Shown: positions 21,845 to 54,265 of the stretch, one piece after another | Layout: every line of letters begins with the position of its first letter | Numbering within the stretch: position 1 is the first letter of the stretch | NCBI RefSeq assembly: GCF_023973145.1 | Contig: NZ_CP099546.1 | Span: forward strand, 1,798,001 to 1,862,000 | Source: Natronosalvus vescus | Lineage (GTDB): Archaea; Halobacteriota; Halobacteria; Halobacteriales; Natrialbaceae | DNA: 64,000 nucleotides | Direction: 5' to 3' | Notes under the pieces: generated by a model | The model's input: the letters and a program-made list of their open reading frames with translations, nothing else | What the model was told of the DNA's origin: nothing | The model's database searches: none | Made by a program: the position numbers and the translations under genes

Positions 21845-21867
21845 CGGAACCAATCGGAGTGGTGACT

Positions 21868-24015
21868 ATGCACACGGTCGATCCCGCTGACGTTCACGAG
21901 ATCACACAGGTTTCCGATCCTCAGATCGCCCCTGATGGCGAACGAGTCGCGTTCGTCAGGAAACGTCCCACGGACGACGAGTCCTACGAGGCGACGGTGT
22001 ACGTGGTTCCTATCGGCGGCGACGAGCCGAGACAGTTCACCGTGAGCGAGGGCGTCGACAGCCAGCCCCGATGGAGTCCCTGTGGCTCGTACCTGGCGTT
22101 CGTCAGCACCCGCGGTGCCGACGACGACCGACCACAGCTCTGGATCCTCCCGACCGACGGCGGCGAGGGTCGACAGGTCACGAGCGTCGTCGGTGGCATC
22201 TCCCAACTCGAGTGGAGCCCCGACGGCTCTCGACTGCTGTTCTCCCAGTCCTCGACCGTCGAGGATCGTGAGGAGGGGCGCGATTTCGCCGTCGATCCCG
22301 AGTACGAGCCCGAGGCACCCGATCCTCGGGTGATCGATCGACTCGTCTATCGGGCCGCCCAGCGGTATATGGACGGCCGCCGAAGCCACGTCTACACCCT
22401 CGACGTCGCGACGGCGCTCGAGAACGGGGTCGTTACCGAGGGGGACAACGAGGCGATGGAACGACTCACCGACGGCGACACTGATTACGTTGCACCGACG
22501 TGGGGCGACGACGACACCATCTACTACGCGACCAAACGCGGCGAGGAACCCGACGACTCGATCGAGTTCGAGATCCTGGCCCACGACCTCCCGTCCGGCG
22601 ACGTCGAGTCGGTCGTCGAGACGCGGGGCTGGATCGCCTCGCTCGAGGGGACGACCGACGGTCGAATCGCCTACCCCTGGACGCCCGAGGAGGGGTTTAC
22701 GCTTCGCCAAACCGAGCTTAAGGTGTTCGATCGGCAGGACGACTCGGAGCGAACGGTCACCGCCGACCTCGATCGCACGATCGGCTTTGGCGGCTACGAG
22801 TGGGATCCGGACGAGGAGACCCTCTACTTCGGGACGCCCGACGAGGGGACGGTCGCGCTCTGGTCGGTTCCCGGCGACGCGAGCGAGGAACCGAGGCGCG
22901 TTCTCGGCGACGCCACCCTCGAGGGCTTTTCGGTGGGCGAGCACGCCGTCGCGTTCGTCCAGAGCGAGTGGGATCACCCCGGCGACGTGTTCGTCTCCAC
23001 GCGCGGCGGCAACGAGGCCACCCGACTGACACGGGTCAACGCCGACTACCTCGAGGATCGAGCCGTCGCCCAGCCCGAGGAGCTGTGGTACGAGAGCGAG
23101 CAGGGGCCGGTACAGGGCTGGCTGTTGATGCCGCCGGAGTTTGGGGGCGAGGCGCCACGCGCCTCGGAGTCGTCGAGCGGGCAGCGCCCGGGAGACCCCG
23201 AGGAAACGTATCCGCTGGTCGTCGAGATTCACGGCGGCCCCCACTCCCAGTGGACGACGAGCGGCACGATGTGGCACGAGTTCCAGAGCCTCGCCGCCGC
23301 CGGGTATGCCGTCTTCTGGTCGAATCCACGCGGTTCGGTTGGCTACGGCGAAGAGTACGCTGCGGCGATCGAACGCGACTGGGGAGACGTGACGCTGACC
23401 GACATCCTCGCTGGCGTCGACCTCGTCTGCGAGCGCGAGTACATCGACGCCGACGAGCAGTACGTTACCGGCGGGAGCTTCGGCGGGTTCATGACCGCCT
23501 GGACGGTCGGCCAGACCGACCGCTTCGGTGCCGCGGTCAGCCAGCGTGGTGTCTACGACTTCACCAGCTTCTACGGCTCGACGGACGCCTTCAAACTGGT
23601 CGAGGGCGACTACGGCGTCACGCCGTGGGAGGATCCCGACTTCCTCTGGGAGCAGTCCCCGGTCGCCCACGTCCCGAACGTGACCACGCCGACGCTGCTG
23701 ATTCACTCCGACCAGGATTATCGGACGCCCGCCAACACGGCCGAACTGTTCTACCTCGGGTTGAAAAAACACGGCGTCGACACCCGGATGGTGCGCTACC
23801 CTCGAGAGGGCCACGAACTCTCCCGCTCGGGCGAACCAGGCCACATGGTCGACCGAATCGAACGCATCGTCCGCTGGTTCGACGGCTACTCGACGTACAC
23901 CGAGGCGTCGCCAGCGCTCGAACGAGACCCGAACGAGGGACTCACGGCGGGCAGCGACGAGAACGGGGAGGAGGAGGACGACGCTGACGGTGACGACGAT
24001 TCCCAGGCCGACTGA
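21868..24015 (+). CDS. S9 family prolyl oligopeptidase / acylaminoacyl peptidase-like
   Basis: This 715-aa cytoplasmic serine peptidase trims short peptides. Residues ~1-420 form a beta-propeller of WD/TolB-like repeats (SQLEWSPDGSRLLFS, GGYEWDPDEETLYF). The alpha/beta-hydrolase domain starts at YPLVVEIHGGPHSQW. The nucleophile is about Ser537 in GGSFGGF, the Asp lies in HSDQDYRTP and the His in REGHELSRSG. Residues ~427-443 are an insertion encoded by a 48-nt palindromic repeat, between propeller and hydrolase. The C-terminal ~35 residues are acidic and disordered. An imperfect hairpin just after the stop may terminate transcription. Confidence 0.93.
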   Translation: MHTVDPADVHEITQVSDPQIAPDGERVAFVRKRPTDDESYEATVYVVPIGGDEPRQFTVSEGVDSQPRWSPCGSYLAFVSTRGADDDRPQLWILPTDGGEGRQVTSVVGGISQLEWSPDGSRLLFSQSSTVEDREEGRDFAVDPEYEPEAPDPRVIDRLVYRAAQRYMDGRRSHVYTLDVATALENGVVTEGDNEAMERLTDGDTDYVAPTWGDDDTIYYATKRGEEPDDSIEFEILAHDLPSGDVESVVETRGWIASLEGTTDGRIAYPWTPEEGFTLRQTELKVFDRQDDSERTVTADLDRTIGFGGYEWDPDEETLYFGTPDEGTVALWSVPGDASEEPRRVLGDATLEGFSVGEHAVAFVQSEWDHPGDVFVSTRGGNEATRLTRVNADYLEDRAVAQPEELWYESEQGPVQGWLLMPPEFGGEAPRASESSSGQRPGDPEETYPLVVEIHGGPHSQWTTSGTMWHEFQSLAAAGYAVFWSNPRGSVGYGEEYAAAIERDWGDVTLTDILAGVDLVCEREYIDADEQYVTGGSFGGFMTAWTVGQTDRFGAAVSQRGVYDFTSFYGSTDAFKLVEGDYGVTPWEDPDFLWEQSPVAHVPNVTTPTLLIHSDQDYRTPANTAELFYLGLKKHGVDTRMVRYPREGHELSRSGEPGHMVDRIERIVRWFDGYSTYTEASPALERDPNEGLTAGSDENGEEEDDADGDDDSQAD
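23148..23195 (+). repeat. 48-nt in-frame palindromic element, copy 1 (in S9 peptidase)
   Basis: Hairpin 1 is CGAGGCGC, loop CAC, GCGCCTCG (8-bp stem). After a 6-nt spacer comes a 23-nt block (23173-23195) containing CGGGC, loop AGC, GCCCG. The element spans exactly 16 codons' worth of DNA and is read through as EAPRASESSSGQRPGD. A second copy with the same layout and frame lies in the siroheme reductase gene. Confidence 0.75.
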
Positions 24016-28364: not shown

Positions 28365-28667
28365 AGGCGCGAATATTGCGGGCCAGTACTTAATTCATGA
28401 GATATTCCGGCGACGGCCTCGAGTTGCGATAGACGTGTCTGCTCGAGTCTACGTGCCCGTTGCACAACGGGAGGAACATGCTCCGCTGATCGAGTCACAA
28501 ACGCACACAAACCGTAAAAATCGGGCCGACTGTGCGCGGATCTGGATGGGTTCGATGAAATTGCTCCTGACGTCGCAATTTCTTCTCGCAGGCGGTGCCC
28601 GCTCGCATTTACGCAGTTCTCGTCTCGCTCCGAACTGCGCCTGGCTCACGGCTCCGCCGCGCCTCGC
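28365..28667. other. Intergenic region after the thermosome gene
   Basis: About 300 nt with no coding frame that I trust. It contains one inverted repeat, GAAATTGC (28557-28564) and GCAATTTC (28575-28582), with a 10-nt loop, about 85 nt past the thermosome stop on the minus strand. Confidence 0.4.
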
Positions 28668-30347
28668 CTACATCGCGCCGCCCATTCCACCCATTCCGCC
28701 CATGCCGCCCATTCCGCCACCCATGCCGCCGCCGGGTGGCATCTCGTCCTCGTCGTCGTCGCTGCCGCCGCCTTTCAGCTCGCCAGCGGCGATCACGTCG
28801 TCGATGCGCAGCAGCATGACGGCTGCTTCGGTGGCGGACTCGATGGCCTGGCTCTTCACGCGGAGGGGCTCGTAGACGCCCTCCTCGCCCATGTCGATCG
28901 TGTCGCCCGTGTAGGCGTCCAGTCCAGCGGCGACGTCGCCGCCGTCGTGGGCGCTACGGAGTTCGACGAGCGAGTCGATGGGGTCGAGCCCAGCGTTCTC
29001 GGCGAGCGTGCGTGGGATGACCTCGAGCGCGTCTGCGAACGCTTCGATCGCGAGCTGTTCGCGGCCGCCGACGGAGTCGGCGTAGTCGCGCAGGGCCAGC
29101 GAGAGTTCGACTTCGGGGGCACCGCCGCCAGCGACGACCTTCCCGTCCTGGAGCGTCGTGCGAACGACGCCGAGGGAGTCCTCGATTGCACGGTCGACCT
29201 CGTCGATGACGTGTTCGGTGCCACCGCGGAGGATGAGGGTGACCGCTTTCGCGTCGTCGACGTCCTCGACGAAGATGCGCTGGTCACCGGCGATGTCCTT
29301 TTGGGCGACGCTGCCGGCGAAGCCGAGGTGCTCCTCGGTCAGGTCGTCGACGCTGTTGACGGGACGGGCACCGGTCGAGCGGGCCAGTCGCTTCATGTCG
29401 CTGGATTTGACCCGGCGGACGGCGATGATGCCTTCCTGGGCCAGGTAGTGCTGGGCCATGTCGTCGATGCCGCCGTCGACGAAGACGACGTCGGCGCCGA
29501 CGGCAGCCAGCTGGTCGACGATCTCCTTGAGCTGGGCTTCCTCCTGCTCGAGGAACTGCTGAAGCTGGTCGGGGTCGGTGACGTTGACTTCGGCGTCGAT
29601 CTCGGTCTCTTTGATCTCGAGTGCGCCGTCGACGAGCGCGATGGAAGCGTCCTCAGCGAAGTACGGCATGTTCTCGTTGACGCGCTCTTTGTCGACGATG
29701 ACGCCCTCGACGAGTTCGGAGTTCTCGATCGAGCCGCCAACGACCTTCTCGACTTTGACGTTGTCCGTGTCGATGCCGTCCTCGTCGGCGACGGTCTGGA
29801 CGGCGCGAACGACGAGTTCGGAGAGCAGATCCTTCGCGTTCTCCGCGCCTTTCCCGGTCATCGCGGTGGCTGCAATCTGCTCGAGAATCTCGTCGTTGTC
29901 CGCGTCGACCTCGACGGCGATGTCCTCGAGAACCTCGGTCGCCTTCTCGGCGGCCTGGCGGTACCCCTGGGCGAGGGTGGTCGCGTGGATGTCCTGCTCG
30001 AGGAGTTCCTCGGCACGCTTGAGCAGTTCACCGGAGACGACGACGGCGGAGGTGGTGCCGTCGCCGACTTCCTCCTCCTGGGTCTCGGAGACTTCGACGA
30101 TCATGTTGGCGGCTGGGTGATCGATCTCCATCTCCGTCAGGAGCGTGACGCCGTCGTTGGTGACGACGACGTTCCCCGTCGAGTCGACGAGCATCTTGTC
30201 CATCCCTTTCGGGCCGAGAGTCGTGCGGACGGCCTCGGCGACTGCTTTCCCGGCCGAGATGTTCATCGATTGTGCGTCTTTTCCGGACGTACGCTGACTG
30301 TCGTCGGAAAGTACGATAAGTGGCTGGTTGCCCATCTGTTGTGCCAT
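28668..30347 (-). CDS. ths: Thermosome (group II chaperonin) subunit
   Basis: This 559-aa ATP-dependent chaperonin subunit builds the double-ring thermosome. Motifs include [22 protein letters not shown], the ATP motif [15 protein letters not shown] and [16 protein letters not shown]. The C-terminus is a run of GGM repeats facing the cavity, preceded by an acidic stretch. I start at [13 protein letters not shown]; an ATG two codons upstream (30353) is possible. A strong promoter, TTTATATA with CGAAG before it, lies 26-30 nt upstream, as expected for a highly expressed, heat-responsive gene. Several paralogous subunits usually exist in haloarchaea. Confidence 0.97.
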
Positions 30348-30373
30348 AGTCATGGATTGATTGTTTGCTATTC

Positions 30374-30381
30374 TATATAAA
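30374..30381 (-). promoter_or_regulatory. TATA box of the thermosome gene
   Basis: TTTATATA on the minus strand, centred ~25 nt upstream of ATG 30353 and ~31 nt upstream of ATG 30347. Confidence 0.7.
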
Positions 30382-30500
30382 GGCTTCGTTATGGGGTGTG
30401 CCAATGAACAACACAACGCTTCAGTGGGGCGGTTGTACGTTCGCCGTCCGTGAGGTATATATGTACATCCTGGCAGTGTCGTGACTCCCTGGCAGTTCGC

Positions 30501-36930: not shown

Positions 36931-38628
36931 TCAGTGCCCGGTGTCGTGTGGATTCAGTTCCGTCCCGTACCACTCGGCGTGGTCGGTGTAGTCGATGAAT
37001 CGCGGTGCGTCGGCATCGAACGGTCGCTCGAGGCTCTCGAACGCCTTTTTCTTGTCCCAGCTCTGGAGGCCGCCGACGGCTCCTCGATCCTCGAGGTCAT
37101 GGTAGTCGAGGTCGGGTTCGGTCAGCTCCCAGGCTTTCAGCCCCTGTTCGGTTCGAACGATGACGCTCGAGTACTCGTCGCTCGAGCCGACCGAGCCGAC
37201 GGTGAGATCGGCACAGTAGCCGGTGAAGTCGGCACACTCGTCGCAGCCCTTGAGCGCGGCGTCGTGGAAGTTCCCGATGTCTTCCTCGAGGATCATCTCG
37301 CCGTCGTGGTCGTACACCATGAGCTTCCCGTGGAGGACGTCCATCTTCCCGACGTCCGCGCGGGCGATCCCTCGCTTCTCCTCGAGTTGCTCGCCCATCA
37401 GGCTGTAGTAGTTGAAGTTCTTGGTGCACATGAGCGCGATCGTGTAGTCGACGGCGCGGACGCCTGCCTCGTGGGAGTCGTACTCCCACTCGAAGTCCTG
37501 CAGGGCGCGGATCCCCTCGATCTCACAGGGAGTGCCCACGAGAGCGAGGCTGATCTCCTCGAGCGGCTTGTCGGGGAGTTTGTGCGTCCACTCGTCGAGG
37601 TCGAGGTGACCCAGCGCCATCGTCTGGTTGTAGATCGTCCCCGCGTTGGCGATCAGATCCTCGTAACTCGTCGCGAGGTAGCTCTCGGCTTTCCAGGGTT
37701 CGTCCTCGCTCTCGGTCGCGATCAGCGCCCCGTCGATTTCGCCCGCCTCGAGCAGGTGCGCCAGCACGGTCGTGACGAGGCCGCCGTCCTGTGCGTTTTC
37801 GGTCCACTCCTCGTCGACGCGCGCGGAGAACTCCGTGATTGGGTCGCCCGCGCCTGTGACGTTGTCGTCGCCGCCGGTGATCTTCCACTGGCGTTCGTAC
37901 CGGAGCCCACCGCGGGGACAGAAGTCCCAGCAGAGCGAACAGCCGGTACACATCTTCACGAGTTCGGGCAGGTCGTCGTCGCCGATGCCGATCGAGTCGG
38001 AGGGGCAGGCGGCGACGCAGGTTCCACACTGGATACAGCGCCCTTCGTCGATGACGGCCTCGTCGAGTTCCATGAACCACGTCTTCTCGTCCGGCGTTTC
38101 GATGTCGTTCATGGACGATCGAATCGAATATGACGGCGTCTCGAGGTCGACACCCTCCGGAATCCCGACGCGAGTAGCGGGGTCGCCATTATCGACGTCC
38201 TGGCTCACGTCCCCGGCGGGCGTCGTGAACTCGAGGTCGGTCAGGTTGCCGCCCTCGTCGACGTTCGAGACGCCCGCGCCGTCGGCGCGGATTGCCCGTT
38301 CGCCGCAGGTGCAGTCGTTCGGGCTGCAGCCGTCTTCAGTCAGTTCCGTTTCGCGGTCGTTCGTCCCTGACTCGACCGCTCGAGCCCGATCGGGCGTCGC
38401 CGCCGGAACGACGTCCTCGTCTAGACCCGTCGCGCCTTCGATTGCCGGAACGCCCGGGTACGGCTCCTCGTGACCGCCGTCGGTGAGGATGTGGCGGCCG
38501 CTCTCCGTCACTGCGCCGTCGCGTTCGTCAGCACCGTCGTTCTCGACCAGTTCCGGGGCGGCGTCGGCGGGAGCGTTCGTCGGAACCGTCTCAATTGGAT
38601 CACTCGAGTCCCGCCCGTCAGTCGCCAT
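36931..38628 (-). CDS. F420 hydrogenase/dehydrogenase beta-like (FrhB/FpoF) iron-sulfur flavoprotein
   Basis: This 565-aa protein is expected to oxidise reduced F420 and pass electrons on through FAD and two [4Fe-4S] clusters. The cluster ligands are C198/C201/C204/C208 (CIQCGTCVAAC) and C227/C230/C233/C237 (CTGCSLCWDFC). The FrhB N- and C-terminal domains follow, with VGTPCEIEGIRALQ, GKMDVLHGKLMVYD and CDECADFTGYCADLTVGSVGS. Residues 1-~172 are an acidic extension with an extra C-X4-C-X-C (101-108); Met173 is an alternative start. The gene overlaps the end of the siroheme reductase gene by 11 bases. Together they resemble a two-gene version of methanogen F420-dependent sulfite reductase. Confidence 0.88.
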   Translation of the reverse strand: MATDGRDSSDPIETVPTNAPADAAPELVENDGADERDGAVTESGRHILTDGGHEEPYPGVPAIEGATGLDEDVVPAATPDRARAVESGTNDRETELTEDGCSPNDCTCGERAIRADGAGVSNVDEGGNLTDLEFTTPAGDVSQDVDNGDPATRVGIPEGVDLETPSYSIRSSMNDIETPDEKTWFMELDEAVIDEGRCIQCGTCVAACPSDSIGIGDDDLPELVKMCTGCSLCWDFCPRGGLRYERQWKITGGDDNVTGAGDPITEFSARVDEEWTENAQDGGLVTTVLAHLLEAGEIDGALIATESEDEPWKAESYLATSYEDLIANAGTIYNQTMALGHLDLDEWTHKLPDKPLEEISLALVGTPCEIEGIRALQDFEWEYDSHEAGVRAVDYTIALMCTKNFNYYSLMGEQLEEKRGIARADVGKMDVLHGKLMVYDHDGEMILEEDIGNFHDAALKGCDECADFTGYCADLTVGSVGSSDEYSSVIVRTEQGLKAWELTEPDLDYHDLEDRGAVGGLQSWDKKKAFESLERPFDADAPRFIDYTDHAEWYGTELNPHDTGH

Positions 38629-40357
38629 GGGCGACACCTCCTGCAATCGGGGCGTCGGCTCGACGAGCGATCTCCCGGAGGCGATCGTTCTCGAGGCGAC
38701 GAGTCCACTCGTAGAACCGCTCGCCTTCGGAACGGTCGTCGGAGTACGCGTCGAACAGCGACTCGAGGGCGGGGACGACGGAGTCGGCGGGGACGGCGGT
38801 CTCGATCCAGTCGAGGAACTCGTTGTCGGTACCGAGGGAGCCGCCGAGGCCGACGTCCATCCCTTCGACCAAGGCGTCTCCATCTCCCGGGCTCTGCCCG
38901 CTCGATCGTGTCGCGGAGCCATGCTCCGCGCCGTCCCCGTCGGAATCGAGTTTCACCGTCTCGCCGCGAAAACCGATGTCCGCGATCTGGGGCTGGGCGC
39001 ACGAGGCCGAGCAGCCGGACATGTGCATTCGGATCACCTCGACGTCGTCGGGGACGTCGATGCGTTCGTCGAGTTCCCGCGCCCATCGTTTCGTGCGCTG
39101 TTTGGTCTCGATGATGGCATATTTGCAGAACTCGTTGCCCGTACAGCCGACGGCTCCGCGCGAGAACGGCCCCGGATCGGGGCTGTACTCCTGGGCGAAC
39201 GGTTCGGCGAGGAGGTCGTCGACGCGCGCTTCCGGGACGTGGGTGATCAGGAGGTTCTGGTCGGTCGCGAGTCGAACGGAGGCGTCGTCGGTGCCATAGC
39301 GCTTCGCGGCTCGAGCGGCGGCGGCGAACTCGTCGCCGCCCATGCGGCCGGTGACGACGTTGAAACCGACGTATTTGAGGCCGTCCTGTTTCTGGTCGTG
39401 GACGCCGACGTGGTCGCCCTGGTAGCCCACGGTGAGCCCCTCGCCGCTCCCGGGGAGGTCGACCGTACACCGATCTCTCACGGCTTCTTCGAATTTCTCG
39501 GGGCCGAGCTGTTCGACGAGGTAGCGCATTCGGCAGAGGCCGCGATTGTACCGGTCGCCGAGTTCCTTGAACGTCTGGGCGACCGCCCGCACGAACTCGA
39601 CGGCGTCCGCCGGCGGGACGAACACGTCGAGTTCGGAGGCCATTCGCGGGCCGTCCGAGAGGCCGCCGCCGACTCGAGCGTGGAAGCCGTAGGTGACCTC
39701 GTCCGCCTGCGTCTTCCTCGCGGGCACGAGGCCAACGTCGTTGATCTGGGACTGTGCGCAGTCGTGTGCGCAGCCGGTGATCGTGAGCTTGAACTTCCGG
39801 GGGAGGTTGGCGTACTCGCGGTTTTCGGTGAAGAAGTCCGAGACGGCGTCGACGACCGGCTGGGCGTCGAAGCACTCGTGGCCGTCGAGGCCGGCGGCGG
39901 GACAGCCGAGGACGTTCCGCGCGGAGTCCCCACAGCCCTGCACCGTGGTCAGGCCGACCTCGTCGTAGCGATTCCAGAGTTCCGGCACGTCCTCGATCCG
40001 AATCCAGTGTTTCTGGATGTCCTGGCGGGTCGTGATGTCGAGGTAGGCGTCACCCCACAGCTCGTTCTGTTCCGCGCCGCCGTACGCCCCGGGGGCAACG
40101 GCGAAGTCCGTCGCCGCCTGGCCGATCACCTCAGCCTGCTCAGGCGTGAGGTAACCACCCGGAACCTTCGTCCGGATCATAAAGTATCCCTCCTGTTTTT
40201 GCGCATACATGCCGGCCCACTTGAGGCGTTCCCACTCACCGTCGCCCGCTCGAGCCTCGATTTCCTCGAACGACAGTCCCTCCTGGGCGTACTCGTGGAC
40301 GTCCTCGAGGACGTCGAGGGGGTGTTTTTCCTGTTTGTGGCGCTCGGTCGTGTTCAC
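38618..40357 (-). CDS. nirA: Siroheme [4Fe-4S] reductase, probable assimilatory nitrite (or sulfite) reductase
   Basis: This 579-aa protein reduces nitrite to ammonia (or sulfite to sulfide) by six electrons. It has two ferrodoxin-like half-repeats and the siroheme/cluster ligands C405-X5-C411 (GCTGNEFCKYA) and C449-X3-C453 (GCSASCAQ). CTGNEFC followed by ETKQR is closer to nitrite than to sulfite reductases. Residues ~476-492 are an insertion encoded by the 48-nt palindromic element, in the loop before EGMDVGLGG. I start at GTG 40357 (VNTTERHKQEKHPLDV), preceded by a GGGGGTGG Shine-Dalgarno-like run. No nitrate reductase or transporter is nearby. The overlapping downstream gene probably supplies electrons from F420. 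Confidence 0.9.
   Translation of the reverse strand: MNTTERHKQEKHPLDVLEDVHEYAQEGLSFEEIEARAGDGEWERLKWAGMYAQKQEGYFMIRTKVPGGYLTPEQAEVIGQAATDFAVAPGAYGGAEQNELWGDAYLDITTRQDIQKHWIRIEDVPELWNRYDEVGLTTVQGCGDSARNVLGCPAAGLDGHECFDAQPVVDAVSDFFTENREYANLPRKFKLTITGCAHDCAQSQINDVGLVPARKTQADEVTYGFHARVGGGLSDGPRMASELDVFVPPADAVEFVRAVAQTFKELGDRYNRGLCRMRYLVEQLGPEKFEEAVRDRCTVDLPGSGEGLTVGYQGDHVGVHDQKQDGLKYVGFNVVTGRMGGDEFAAAARAAKRYGTDDASVRLATDQNLLITHVPEARVDDLLAEPFAQEYSPDPGPFSRGAVGCTGNEFCKYAIIETKQRTKRWARELDERIDVPDDVEVIRMHMSGCSASCAQPQIADIGFRGETVKLDSDGDGAEHGSATRSSGQSPGDGDALVEGMDVGLGGSLGTDNEFLDWIETAVPADSVVPALESLFDAYSDDRSEGERFYEWTRRLENDRLREIARRADAPIAGGVAHGD
38883..38930 (-). repeat. 48-nt in-frame palindromic element, copy 2 (in siroheme reductase)
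   Basis: Reading the minus strand: hairpin 1 is CGCGGAGC, loop ATG, GCTCCGCG; then a 6-nt spacer; then the 23-nt block (38905 to 38883) with CGGGC, loop AGA, GCCCG. Compared with copy 1, the block differs at one loop base. The first stem differs at two base pairs, both compensated. The translation is AEHGSATRSSGQSPGD, in the same frame as copy 1. Confidence 0.75.
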
Positions 40358-40864
40358 GGCGACCACCCCCGGGAGAAGGCGGGAGTTGGGCGGATCGTCG
40401 CTGCCGGTGTGGCGGAGAGTGACATAGGGGGTAGTCACGAGTGACGCACATACCGCCGTGCGTTCAGGCGAAGCCTGGCGTCTATCGGCTGTTCCGGCAA
40501 TCATTGCTCCTCCGGAGGCTGCTCCAACTCGGAACCGAGTCCGAACGGGGGTGATGTAGGCGTCTCGAGCGACGAACCGCGAACCACGTCACTGATCGCG
40601 GCAATGCTCTCCTGAACCGGACACGGAGGTTCAGGCGGCAGCCGGCTGGCTCGAGCCGCCGCGCACGCCCGACTGCCATTCCCATCGGTCTCGGAGCTAC
40701 CGCGCACGTCCGACTGCCATTCCTCGGCTGCCTCGAGTTTCTGGTATGGGTGTCAGCTCTAGCACTCGCTCTCGGTGCCCACTCTAGGACTTGTTATCTG
40801 CATCCGCTCGAGCACCCGCTATCCGTGCTTTTCGATCCGTCCCTCCAGTCGATGTCCGTCGCGA
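40358..40864. other. Upstream region of the siroheme reductase gene
   Basis: About 500 nt. A 24-bp direct repeat (40659-40682 and 40700-40723, one mismatch, 41-bp period) is the only structure seen. A 68-codon minus-strand frame (40501-40707) exists but its third-position GC is lower than that of neighbours, so I do not call it a gene. Confidence 0.45.
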
Positions 40865-52591: not shown

Positions 52592-54265
52592 TCACTCCGC
52601 CGACCGAAACACCTCGGTGAGCTTCTCGATCACCTCGTCGTGTTCGTCGACCCGTGACTCGAGCGACCGCTGTGTGGCGTCGACGCCGGCGTGGTCGGCC
52701 TCGAGTGCCTCGAGTTGCGATTCCAGCGCGTCGATCCGTTCTTCCAGGGTTTCCTGGCGTTCGTCGAGTCGTGTTTTCAGCGCCTCGTGGCGTTCCTCGA
52801 GATCGTTCTGCCGTTCGTCGATCCGCGAATCCAGCGCGTCGATCCGTTCCTCGAGCGCGCTCTGTCCCTCATCGATGCGTGTTTCGAGCGTGTCGTGGCG
52901 CTCTTCGATCGCATCGTGGCGCTCGTCGATCTGGACTTCGAGTGCCTCGTGGCGTTCCTCGATTCCCTCGAGCGCCTCCTGGGCGGCCTCGGCTTCCGCG
53001 ATGAGTTCGTCGGCGGTACCGCTGTCGTCGATAAACGCTTCCATCGCGTCCGCGTAGGCACCGATCTCTTGCACCCGTCCCTCGAGATACGTGAGCCGGA
53101 CGGCTTTGCTCCGGCTGTCCACGACACCGAGGGCATCCCGAAGCCGCTTGCGTTGCTCGTCGTCGGCGTCTTCGAGTTCCGCGAGGAGGCGCTCGAGCGT
53201 GTCGGACTCGGTCTCAAAAGTCGCGTCACCGGTTTCGACTTCGGATTTGGTTGGTTCGATCGGTTCGGTCGGTTCGGTCGGTTCGGTCGGTTCAGTCGGT
53301 TCGGTCGATTCGGTCGACAAACTGCTCTCGTCCTCGTCCAGTACCGCCTTGTCGCCGGAGTCGACCGCCCCACCGCCATCCGTCGCACCCATGCCCGCCG
53401 TCGAGGTGTCCGTTGCCGTCCGGGTCGGTTCGTCCATATCGTCCTCGCCGTAGGCAACCGTCTCCGCGAAGCTGAGTTCGTCTTCCGGCCCGCTCAACTC
53501 GCTTTCGCCTTCAGCCTCGAGCCACTCCGCAACCGCTCCTTCGGGTTCGTCGTGCCCGCCCGGAATCGTGTGCATCGTTTCTGCCGCCTGGACGTAGGTC
53601 AGTTGTTCCAGAGAATCGACGACCGTCTCGACGTCGTCGCTCGTTGCAATTACAGGCTCGATGGCCGCCGATCCGTTCCTGTCGTGGGTATCGCCGTCTG
53701 CACGTCCGCTCGAGACGACGGTACACATCGACTCGAGCCCGTCCAGCAGCGCCTGCTCGTCGGTATCGGAACTCCCCGCGGCGAACTCGATGTGGATCCG
53801 CGCGAGCGTTCGCCCCGCCGTGTCGGCTCCGTCCAACTCGCCGCCATCACCGTCTGCGGCTGTGGACGTGTCGTCTTCGCCCTCCTCTTCAATGAGCACA
53901 GTCTCGACAATTTGCGGTGTTTCGGAGATCGCCTCGACCTGTTCCGGCCGCTCACACCGGATGGTGTAACAGGTCTCGATCACTGCCGACGGCTCGATTC
54001 GACTCTCGAACGTCACCGTTGCCTCCTCGAGCGACCACCTATCGGCGTGCTCCACAAACTCGACAGCCGCCGCCAGCCCCGGGGGCACCTCGTCTTCGAG
54101 GACGATGGTGTACGGCTCGTCGGCCGCCGACTCGAGTCGGACGTGGACGTCCGCTTCCGTTTGTCGAGTCGTTTCGATGTCTTTCTCGACCGTTATTTGT
54201 CCTATTTGGTCTATTTGCCCTCGATGGCTCTGTTCCCCCTTCGTCTCACGTTCGCATCCCCCCAT
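52592..54265 (-). CDS. Large acidic coiled-coil protein with TEP repeats
   Basis: This 557-aa soluble protein has unknown function. Residues ~15-125 look like a beta-sandwich related to DUF11-like repeats (DVHVRLESAADEPYTIVLEDEVPPGLAA). Residues ~130-300 are acidic and largely disordered. A TEPTEPTEPTEPIEP stretch (~318-340) is encoded by 9-bp repeats. From ~420 to the end there are ~20 heptads of Glu/Arg coiled coil built from ERHDALExRIDERQ-like units. No membrane segment or signal. A TTTTTAACT promoter box at 54292-54300 supports ATG 54265. It may be a structural or scaffold protein. Confidence 0.75.
   Translation of the reverse strand: MGGCERETKGEQSHRGQIDQIGQITVEKDIETTRQTEADVHVRLESAADEPYTIVLEDEVPPGLAAAVEFVEHADRWSLEEATVTFESRIEPSAVIETCYTIRCERPEQVEAISETPQIVETVLIEEEGEDDTSTAADGDGGELDGADTAGRTLARIHIEFAAGSSDTDEQALLDGLESMCTVVSSGRADGDTHDRNGSAAIEPVIATSDDVETVVDSLEQLTYVQAAETMHTIPGGHDEPEGAVAEWLEAEGESELSGPEDELSFAETVAYGEDDMDEPTRTATDTSTAGMGATDGGGAVDSGDKAVLDEDESSLSTESTEPTEPTEPTEPTEPIEPTKSEVETGDATFETESDTLERLLAELEDADDEQRKRLRDALGVVDSRSKAVRLTYLEGRVQEIGAYADAMEAFIDDSGTADELIAEAEAAQEALEGIEERHEALEVQIDERHDAIEERHDTLETRIDEGQSALEERIDALDSRIDERQNDLEERHEALKTRLDERQETLEERIDALESQLEALEADHAGVDATQRSLESRVDEHDEVIEKLTEVFRSAE
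53248..53318. repeat. 9-bp coding repeat (Thr-Glu-Pro array)
   Basis: The unit GGTTCGGTC recurs about seven times with some GATC/CAGTC variants. It encodes the TEP array of the coiled-coil protein on the minus strand. Confidence 0.85.

Follow-up and report, generated by a model that had tools for sequence, protein, structure and literature searches.

Two in-frame double hairpins in unrelated genes of Natronosalvus vescus belong to a haloarchaea-wide family of translated palindromic elements

Why should two unrelated genes of Natronosalvus vescus carry, in the same codon phase, the same pair of hairpins? The window analysed here, a stretch of 64,000 nucleotides of contig NZ_CP099546.1, contains an S9 family peptidase gene (21859..24015, + strand; PF00326, E=9e-52; PDB homologue 8wt1, E=7e-104) and a gene for a ferredoxin-dependent nitrite/sulphite reductase of the NirA type (38618..40504, − strand; PF01077, E=6e-54; PDB homologue 3b0l, E=4e-82), which has PF01077/PF03460 domains and an uncertain start codon. 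An earlier note, made from the letters alone, had reported a 48-nt stretch in each gene, and both the sequence and the Pfam assignments confirm the two stretches at their places, in frame in two unrelated genes. Copy 1, on the + strand, consists of hairpin 1 (23148..23166; CGAGGCGC-CAC-GCGCCTCG), a spacer (23167-23172) and a second half forming hairpin 2 (23173..23195; TC-GAG-CGGGC-AGC-GCCCG-GGA-GA). Copy 2 runs 38930..38883 on the − strand, with hairpin 1 at 38912..38930 (CGCGGAGC-ATG-GCTCCGCG; DNA fold z=-4.3) and hairpin 2 at 38883..38905. Besides the sequence and the DNA folds, hairpin 1 of copy 1 has the stem covariation of the family behind it and hairpin 2 of both copies a shuffle test. 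The arms of hairpin 1 differ between the copies as described, while the 23-nt second half, TCGAGCGGGCAGNGCCCGGGAGA, differs only in its loop; both points were verified in the sequence. This half occurs twice in the window against an expectation of 0 (100 shuffles) and, without mismatches, only at those two sites in the 3.84-Mb genome. At the foot of hairpin 2 both window copies have C changed to G, a rare state (3/129 copies, the third carrier having it compensated); that they share it suggests copying or conversion between the two.

The boundaries were set by ortholog alignment. In the peptidase gene the insert is absent from all seven congeners, and the gap is exactly 51 nt (23145..23195, + strand; congeners L043 and L045); where the window has PPEFGGEAPRASESSSGQRPGDPEE, 7/7 congeners and almost every other relative show PPDFDPDE or a close variant. 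The 48 nt first noticed stand as the visible repeat, but the real insertion in the peptidase is 51 nt long. In the reductase gene the in-frame insertion (38883..38933, − strand) is about 51 nt by its anatomy and is missing from congeners L091 and L092; the net difference from the nearest empty congeners is 45 nt because these have extra linker codons. Congener G235 has an insertion at the same reductase site, with the same stem arms and other loops, and a genome of another family (G017) carries a different element copy at the same point of the S9 peptidase. The PDB homologues 8wt1 and 3b0l show a gap at both insertion places. As judged from these alignments, both window copies are insertions.

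The same kind of comparison at further loci showed presence and absence between congeners at exact positions (several loci), with most congeners lacking the insert and empty sites dominating at each locus tested; mobility is read here from presence and absence among relatives. Insertion lengths were 54 nt at four loci, 51 nt at two (including the window peptidase), 99 nt at two, 105 nt at three and 114 nt at one. All well-aligned lengths are divisible by three; two low-quality alignments (L265, L268) gave other net lengths and were left out of the tally. Where short insertions are best resolved, the break follows GA or GG and usually precedes C, falling between the second and third position of a codon (for example AAG GA|C, TTC GA|C, GTC GA|Y and GAG GG|C), and the 105-nt site L154 also follows GG. 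A target duplication was considered, as a GA...GA reading fits several sites and a 2-bp GA is possible there, but it is contradicted by L167 (GG..CA) and L154 (GGG..AA), so that no consistent duplication exists.

The element is not confined to these two genes. A third, diverged copy lies in the window at 28578..28645 on the − strand (model match of 32.9 bits, E=0.004; core with two mismatches). It is intergenic, 3' of gene 28668-30416, whose C-terminal tail is GGM-rich, which we take to be typical of a thermosome. Elsewhere in the window, tandem repeats of 54 nt and 9 nt were seen at 52690-52959 and 53237-53316, inside ORF 52592-54265 (−). The covariance-model search proposed in the earlier note gave 8-9 matches in the N. 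vescus genome, and of the 293 genomes of the order that were sampled, 250 had the element. Two near-identical intergenic copies of N. vescus (L103, L104) form a covariant subtype, CGAACGGGC-AAC-GCCCGTGAG, embedded in a longer conserved block. A search with the core pattern found relatives in 207/293 genomes of the order, its reversed-pattern control being nearly empty, and most of these relatives had an upstream hairpin at constant spacing, a feature that was no part of the search pattern. Full scoring of ten genomes gave 23-41 copies in nine and three copies in the tenth, congener G235. All named matches (38/38; 84,980 species searched) are haloarchaea, including Halobacterium, Haloarcula, Halorussus, Natrinema, Natronococcus and Halococcus, and ten plasmid records carry the element. 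Outside the order, one of 124 other genomes of the phylum matched the core, with two mismatches. The element family is haloarchaea-wide and essentially absent elsewhere. Carriage by viruses or phages was considered and dropped, there being no exact core match in IMG/VR contigs and no match in 50,697 phage records. Membership of a known RNA family was likewise rejected, as six loci gave no Rfam match above the gathering score.

The family consensus is (GR)T-AGCGCGGAGCGAAGCTCCGCGGACCRTTCGAGCGGGCNNNGCCCGCGAGAAGA-(C). Its basic unit consists of two hairpins in 51 or 54 nt, and multi-hairpin forms of 99-114 nt also occur. Behind an RTAG-like foot, hairpin 1 has an 8-bp stem and a 3-nt loop; a spacer of about 6 nt leads to hairpin 2, GCGGGC-NNN-GCCCGC, with GA/GA flanks and a TC/GA closing, the core of which is invariant or nearly so across the family. 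A long form in Halobacterium (L154, L155, L195, L199) reaches 105-114 nt by further hairpins flanking the 54-nt unit on either side, again in multiples of three. The earlier note had proposed selection on, or copying through, a folded form on the strength of two copies, and the family supports it: in 32 core-selected sequences, chosen without reference to hairpin 1, 211 of 256 stem cells were paired, against 146.8±8.1 with shuffled 3' arms (0/2000 reaching the observed value), which is strong evidence, though the sequences are related and so not independent. The pairing collapses when the register is slid, and intragenic copies include ten fully complementary arm pairs of hairpin 1, four of them common. 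Since substitutions in stem 1 are compensated across the stem even as they alter the encoded residues, it is, by this comparison of sequences, the fold of hairpin 1 that is conserved rather than the stem-1 peptide. As to the form in which the element might fold, at the foot of hairpin 2 in all copies TC-GA-G...C-GA-GA gives tandem G/A positions (5'-CGAG-3' twice), and GCGAAGC, present in hairpin 1, is known as an unusually stable DNA mini-hairpin. The foot and this loop hint at a single-stranded DNA form.

The common codon phase of the two window genes extends to a near-total lock of strand and phase, a result beyond the reach of two copies. Coding frames were assigned by a codon model trained on the window genes, except for seven annotated plasmid genes, and the classification is conservative. 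The main sample comprised the 97 copies with coding sequence on both sides, the codon model having left 43 of 140 unresolved; several of these sit at gene ends, in the canonical frame. All 97 lie in one orientation and one phase (SAERSSADRSSGQSPRE). The frame in use is stop-free in 97/97, but so, in 94-96 of the 97 copies, are the three antisense frames as well as +0, and only the +1 frame is commonly closed (62/97 closed, 35/97 open). In independent samples the canonical strand and phase were found at 19/21 loci of named genomes and in 7/7 NCBI-annotated plasmid genes, for which the phase was computed from CDS coordinates. The core was derived from two genic copies, which could have biased the sample towards genes; against this, 20 lower-scoring divergent matches from two genomes were taken regardless of context, and 17 were intragenic, all 17 canonical, with three not intragenic. 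A tRNA cross-match was also considered, and the one tRNA concerned lies near, not at, one of these context-blind matches. Possible exceptions called by the codon model are L337 (antisense), L338 (another phase) and one antisense call with a wider window; intergenic copies are L103 and L104 in N. vescus and L383 and L391 elsewhere. Almost all intragenic copies thus share one strand and phase. Translation of the element adds 17-18 residues to the host protein, with a near-invariant SSGxxPR motif. The peptide of the canonical frame has a GRAVY of -1.78, a net charge near 0 and a hydrophobic fraction of 0.11, whereas the other frames give basic peptides (net charge of +1.0 to +3.8 per 17 residues) with hydrophobic fractions of 0.29-0.47, some containing cysteine.

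We consider it likely that the family is a mobile DNA element of haloarchaea, hairpin-forming and non-autonomous, whose copies sit inside genes and are translated, and that it is selfish and filtered by translation. The folded single strand would be what gets copied, by machinery that would act on DNA and be distinct from both a resident Y1 transposase and a reverse transcriptase. Copies landing in other frames would be purged as breaking or burdening proteins, since of all frames it is the canonical one whose peptide is most hydrophilic and carries the least charge, a peptide that should be tolerable in surface loops, and intergenic copies may be lost or diverge faster. Non-orthologous copies resemble each other more within genera than between them (identity 0.832 against 0.788; 0/2000 permutations), as expected of lineage-specific amplification, and in Halobacterium 19 of 24 copies have one stem arm in common.

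A pure survival filter does not account for everything. By a rough estimate it predicts roughly equal numbers of genic and intergenic copies (~0.86/6 against 0.14), and three of the 20 context-blind matches were not intragenic; this deficit of intergenic copies calls for targeting or faster intergenic loss in addition, and for that reason we keep as the main rival an insertion coupled to coding, in which the machinery itself picks the sense strand and the codon phase, for instance through action on DNA that is being transcribed or translated. That 0/97 copies are antisense, with three antisense frames open in at least 94/97, agrees with such a choice, as do the 17 canonical copies among the 20 context-blind matches, more genic than the filter alone predicts, and the insertion points lying mostly between codon positions 2 and 3. 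We nevertheless hold coupling to be unlikely. We know of no enzyme that chooses sense strand and codon phase, the one RNA-level route examined would need a reverse transcriptase, and the gap in peptide properties between frames gives selection an easy handle. RVT_1 was found in 0/28 genomes, the controls being positive, and dispersal of the element as an RNA spread by retroelements was dropped on that account. In its most specific version, an order-wide element whose machinery, neither Y1 nor reverse transcriptase, inserts pairs of hairpins of 51/54 nt on the coding strand, at the 2|3 boundary within a codon, the proposal is again a doubtful one; if true, it would describe a reading-frame-coupled insertion system that makes new protein loops and leaves genes unbroken.

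Descent from IS200/IS605 elements, in the manner of PATEs, or from REPs, with a Y1 HUH transposase moving the element through single-stranded hairpins, seems to us distinctly improbable. It would agree with the RTAG-like foot before hairpin 1 and with the 52-bp terminal-only form of PATEs, close to the 51/54 nt here, both families lacking a consistent duplication (PMC3119063). However, several genomes rich in copies lack Y1_Tnp (G005, G029, G034, G072, G086, G136, G055), and genomes free of copies have it (G094, G009, G010, G011, G052), so that a resident Y1 transposase is not required; with no association between these genes and copy number, a Y1, RAYT or IS605 transposase was rejected as the universal driver. 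Moreover, neither hairpin repeats the other, in contrast to HqIRS46 as that element is described, and PATEs are not presented as in-frame genic insertions in the portion of the account consulted (PMC3119063).

Positive selection for a useful peptide, that is, a domesticated linker serving as a flexible loop compatible with an acidic proteome or as a modification site, is a quite improbable explanation. Several separate lineages use the same site within one gene, which would suit it, as would the near-invariance of SSGxxPR. Thus the S9 peptidase point is used in two families, and in a TrpB-like gene one site (GGGSNTMGAF..FV|) is occupied with different stem arms in at least three lineages (L014, L017, L219, L359; carriers G166, G194, G264 and Halolamina). 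Annotated plasmid merA genes carry the element in four genera, Halorussus, Salinirubellus, Salinigranum and Natrinema, always in the canonical frame (L367, L368, L369, L372). The hosts are functionally unrelated, however. By Pfam they include a PLP enzyme (TrpB by context), an AMP-binding ligase, an amine-oxidase/desaturase-like flavoprotein, a cupin, a class I tRNA synthetase, GatB/GatE, an HhH-GPD repair protein and a TRM5/TYW2 methyltransferase, and on plasmids mercury reductase, CobN, a mismatch repair protein and an Xaa-Pro peptidase family protein. The stem-1 residues also change freely while the pairing holds, and most congeners do without the insert. An intron-like element that is excised from RNA or bypassed by the ribosome, and so never translated, would explain the strong conserved hairpins, but we find it very hard to credit, as neither lengths that are all multiples of three nor a stop-free frame in 97/97 would be required of an excised element. 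That the inserts are ancestral and lost in most lineages, or chance low-complexity similarities, is contradicted despite the variable linker at the reductase site and the partial look-alikes there in G122 and G193, since empty sites dominate every tested locus, in congeners and PDB homologues alike, shuffles predict none and the covariation is family-wide. The earlier note had itself named a lack of further copies, or ancestral residues in orthologs, as grounds against its reading; copies are abundant and the orthologs lack the residues.

Most of what is known of translated selfish palindromes comes from a few intracellular bacteria and a single methanogen, and in those systems low copy number and non-model hosts left the mechanism and the choice of phase open. 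A selfish element filtered by translation would here be an order-wide family in free-living archaea, including genetically tractable genera (Halobacterium, Haloarcula and others), with dozens of copies per genome, exact empty sites in congeners and a nearly absolute lock of strand and phase. Two old questions become testable with it, namely by what means such elements move when there is no recognised transposase, and whether the frame is set by selection or by mechanism. The family also accounts for the SSGxxPR insertions that recur in haloarchaeal proteins and that, if unrecognised, mislead alignments, the calling of start sites and structural models. An earlier description of it was not found in the open-access literature, and the haloarchaeal two-hairpin family appears to be undescribed before.

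The nearest known systems share some of its features and differ in others. Bacterial REPs are also short palindromes in many copies with an RTAG-like tetranucleotide at the foot, but they are described as lying mainly outside genes and as linked to Y1 RAYT genes (PMC3733652, PMC8266576), whereas the haloarchaeal element is mainly intragenic and without Y1 association. The PATEs of Haloquadratum walsbyi, described as IS605-derived, with near-terminal palindromes, a 52-bp minimal form and no target duplication (PMC3119063), resemble it in being haloarchaeal, transposase-free and palindromic, of similar minimal size and without consistent duplication. They differ in having similar palindromes at both ends and in not being reported as translated in the part of that source consulted, and our family shows no dependence on a resident Y1 transposase. 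Closer in kind are the Rickettsia palindromic elements and the protein-coding palindromes of Wolbachia (Ogata et al. 2000, 2002, 2005; PMC2229807, PMC3733652), which are likewise palindromic repeats lying in frame in conserved genes as well as in intergenic DNA, with the used frame open and the host protein tolerant. The likeness to the Rickettsia elements proposed in the earlier note holds for the kind, in-frame palindromic insertion; homology is not claimed, and the anatomy differs. Rickettsia elements proper are given as 105-146 bp long, with one long stem-loop and terminal inverted repeats (PMC2229807, PMC3733652), an anatomy that the haloarchaeal unit does not share, being 51/54 nt long, GC-rich, built of two separate short hairpins, order-wide, mostly intragenic and phase-locked. 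What it does share with protein-coding palindromes in general is that palindromes stand in several unrelated genes, in frame, are absent from orthologs and occur outside genes too. In archaea, palindromic coding repeats of Methanocaldococcus jannaschii, from a 2005 study known to us as cited in PMC2996958 and PMC2229807, are also fused in frame into protein genes; their host is a hyperthermophilic methanogen, and the comparison is one of description, not of sequence. Translated palindromes are a known kind, represented in Rickettsia, Wolbachia and Methanocaldococcus, and the haloarchaeal family appears as a new one within it.
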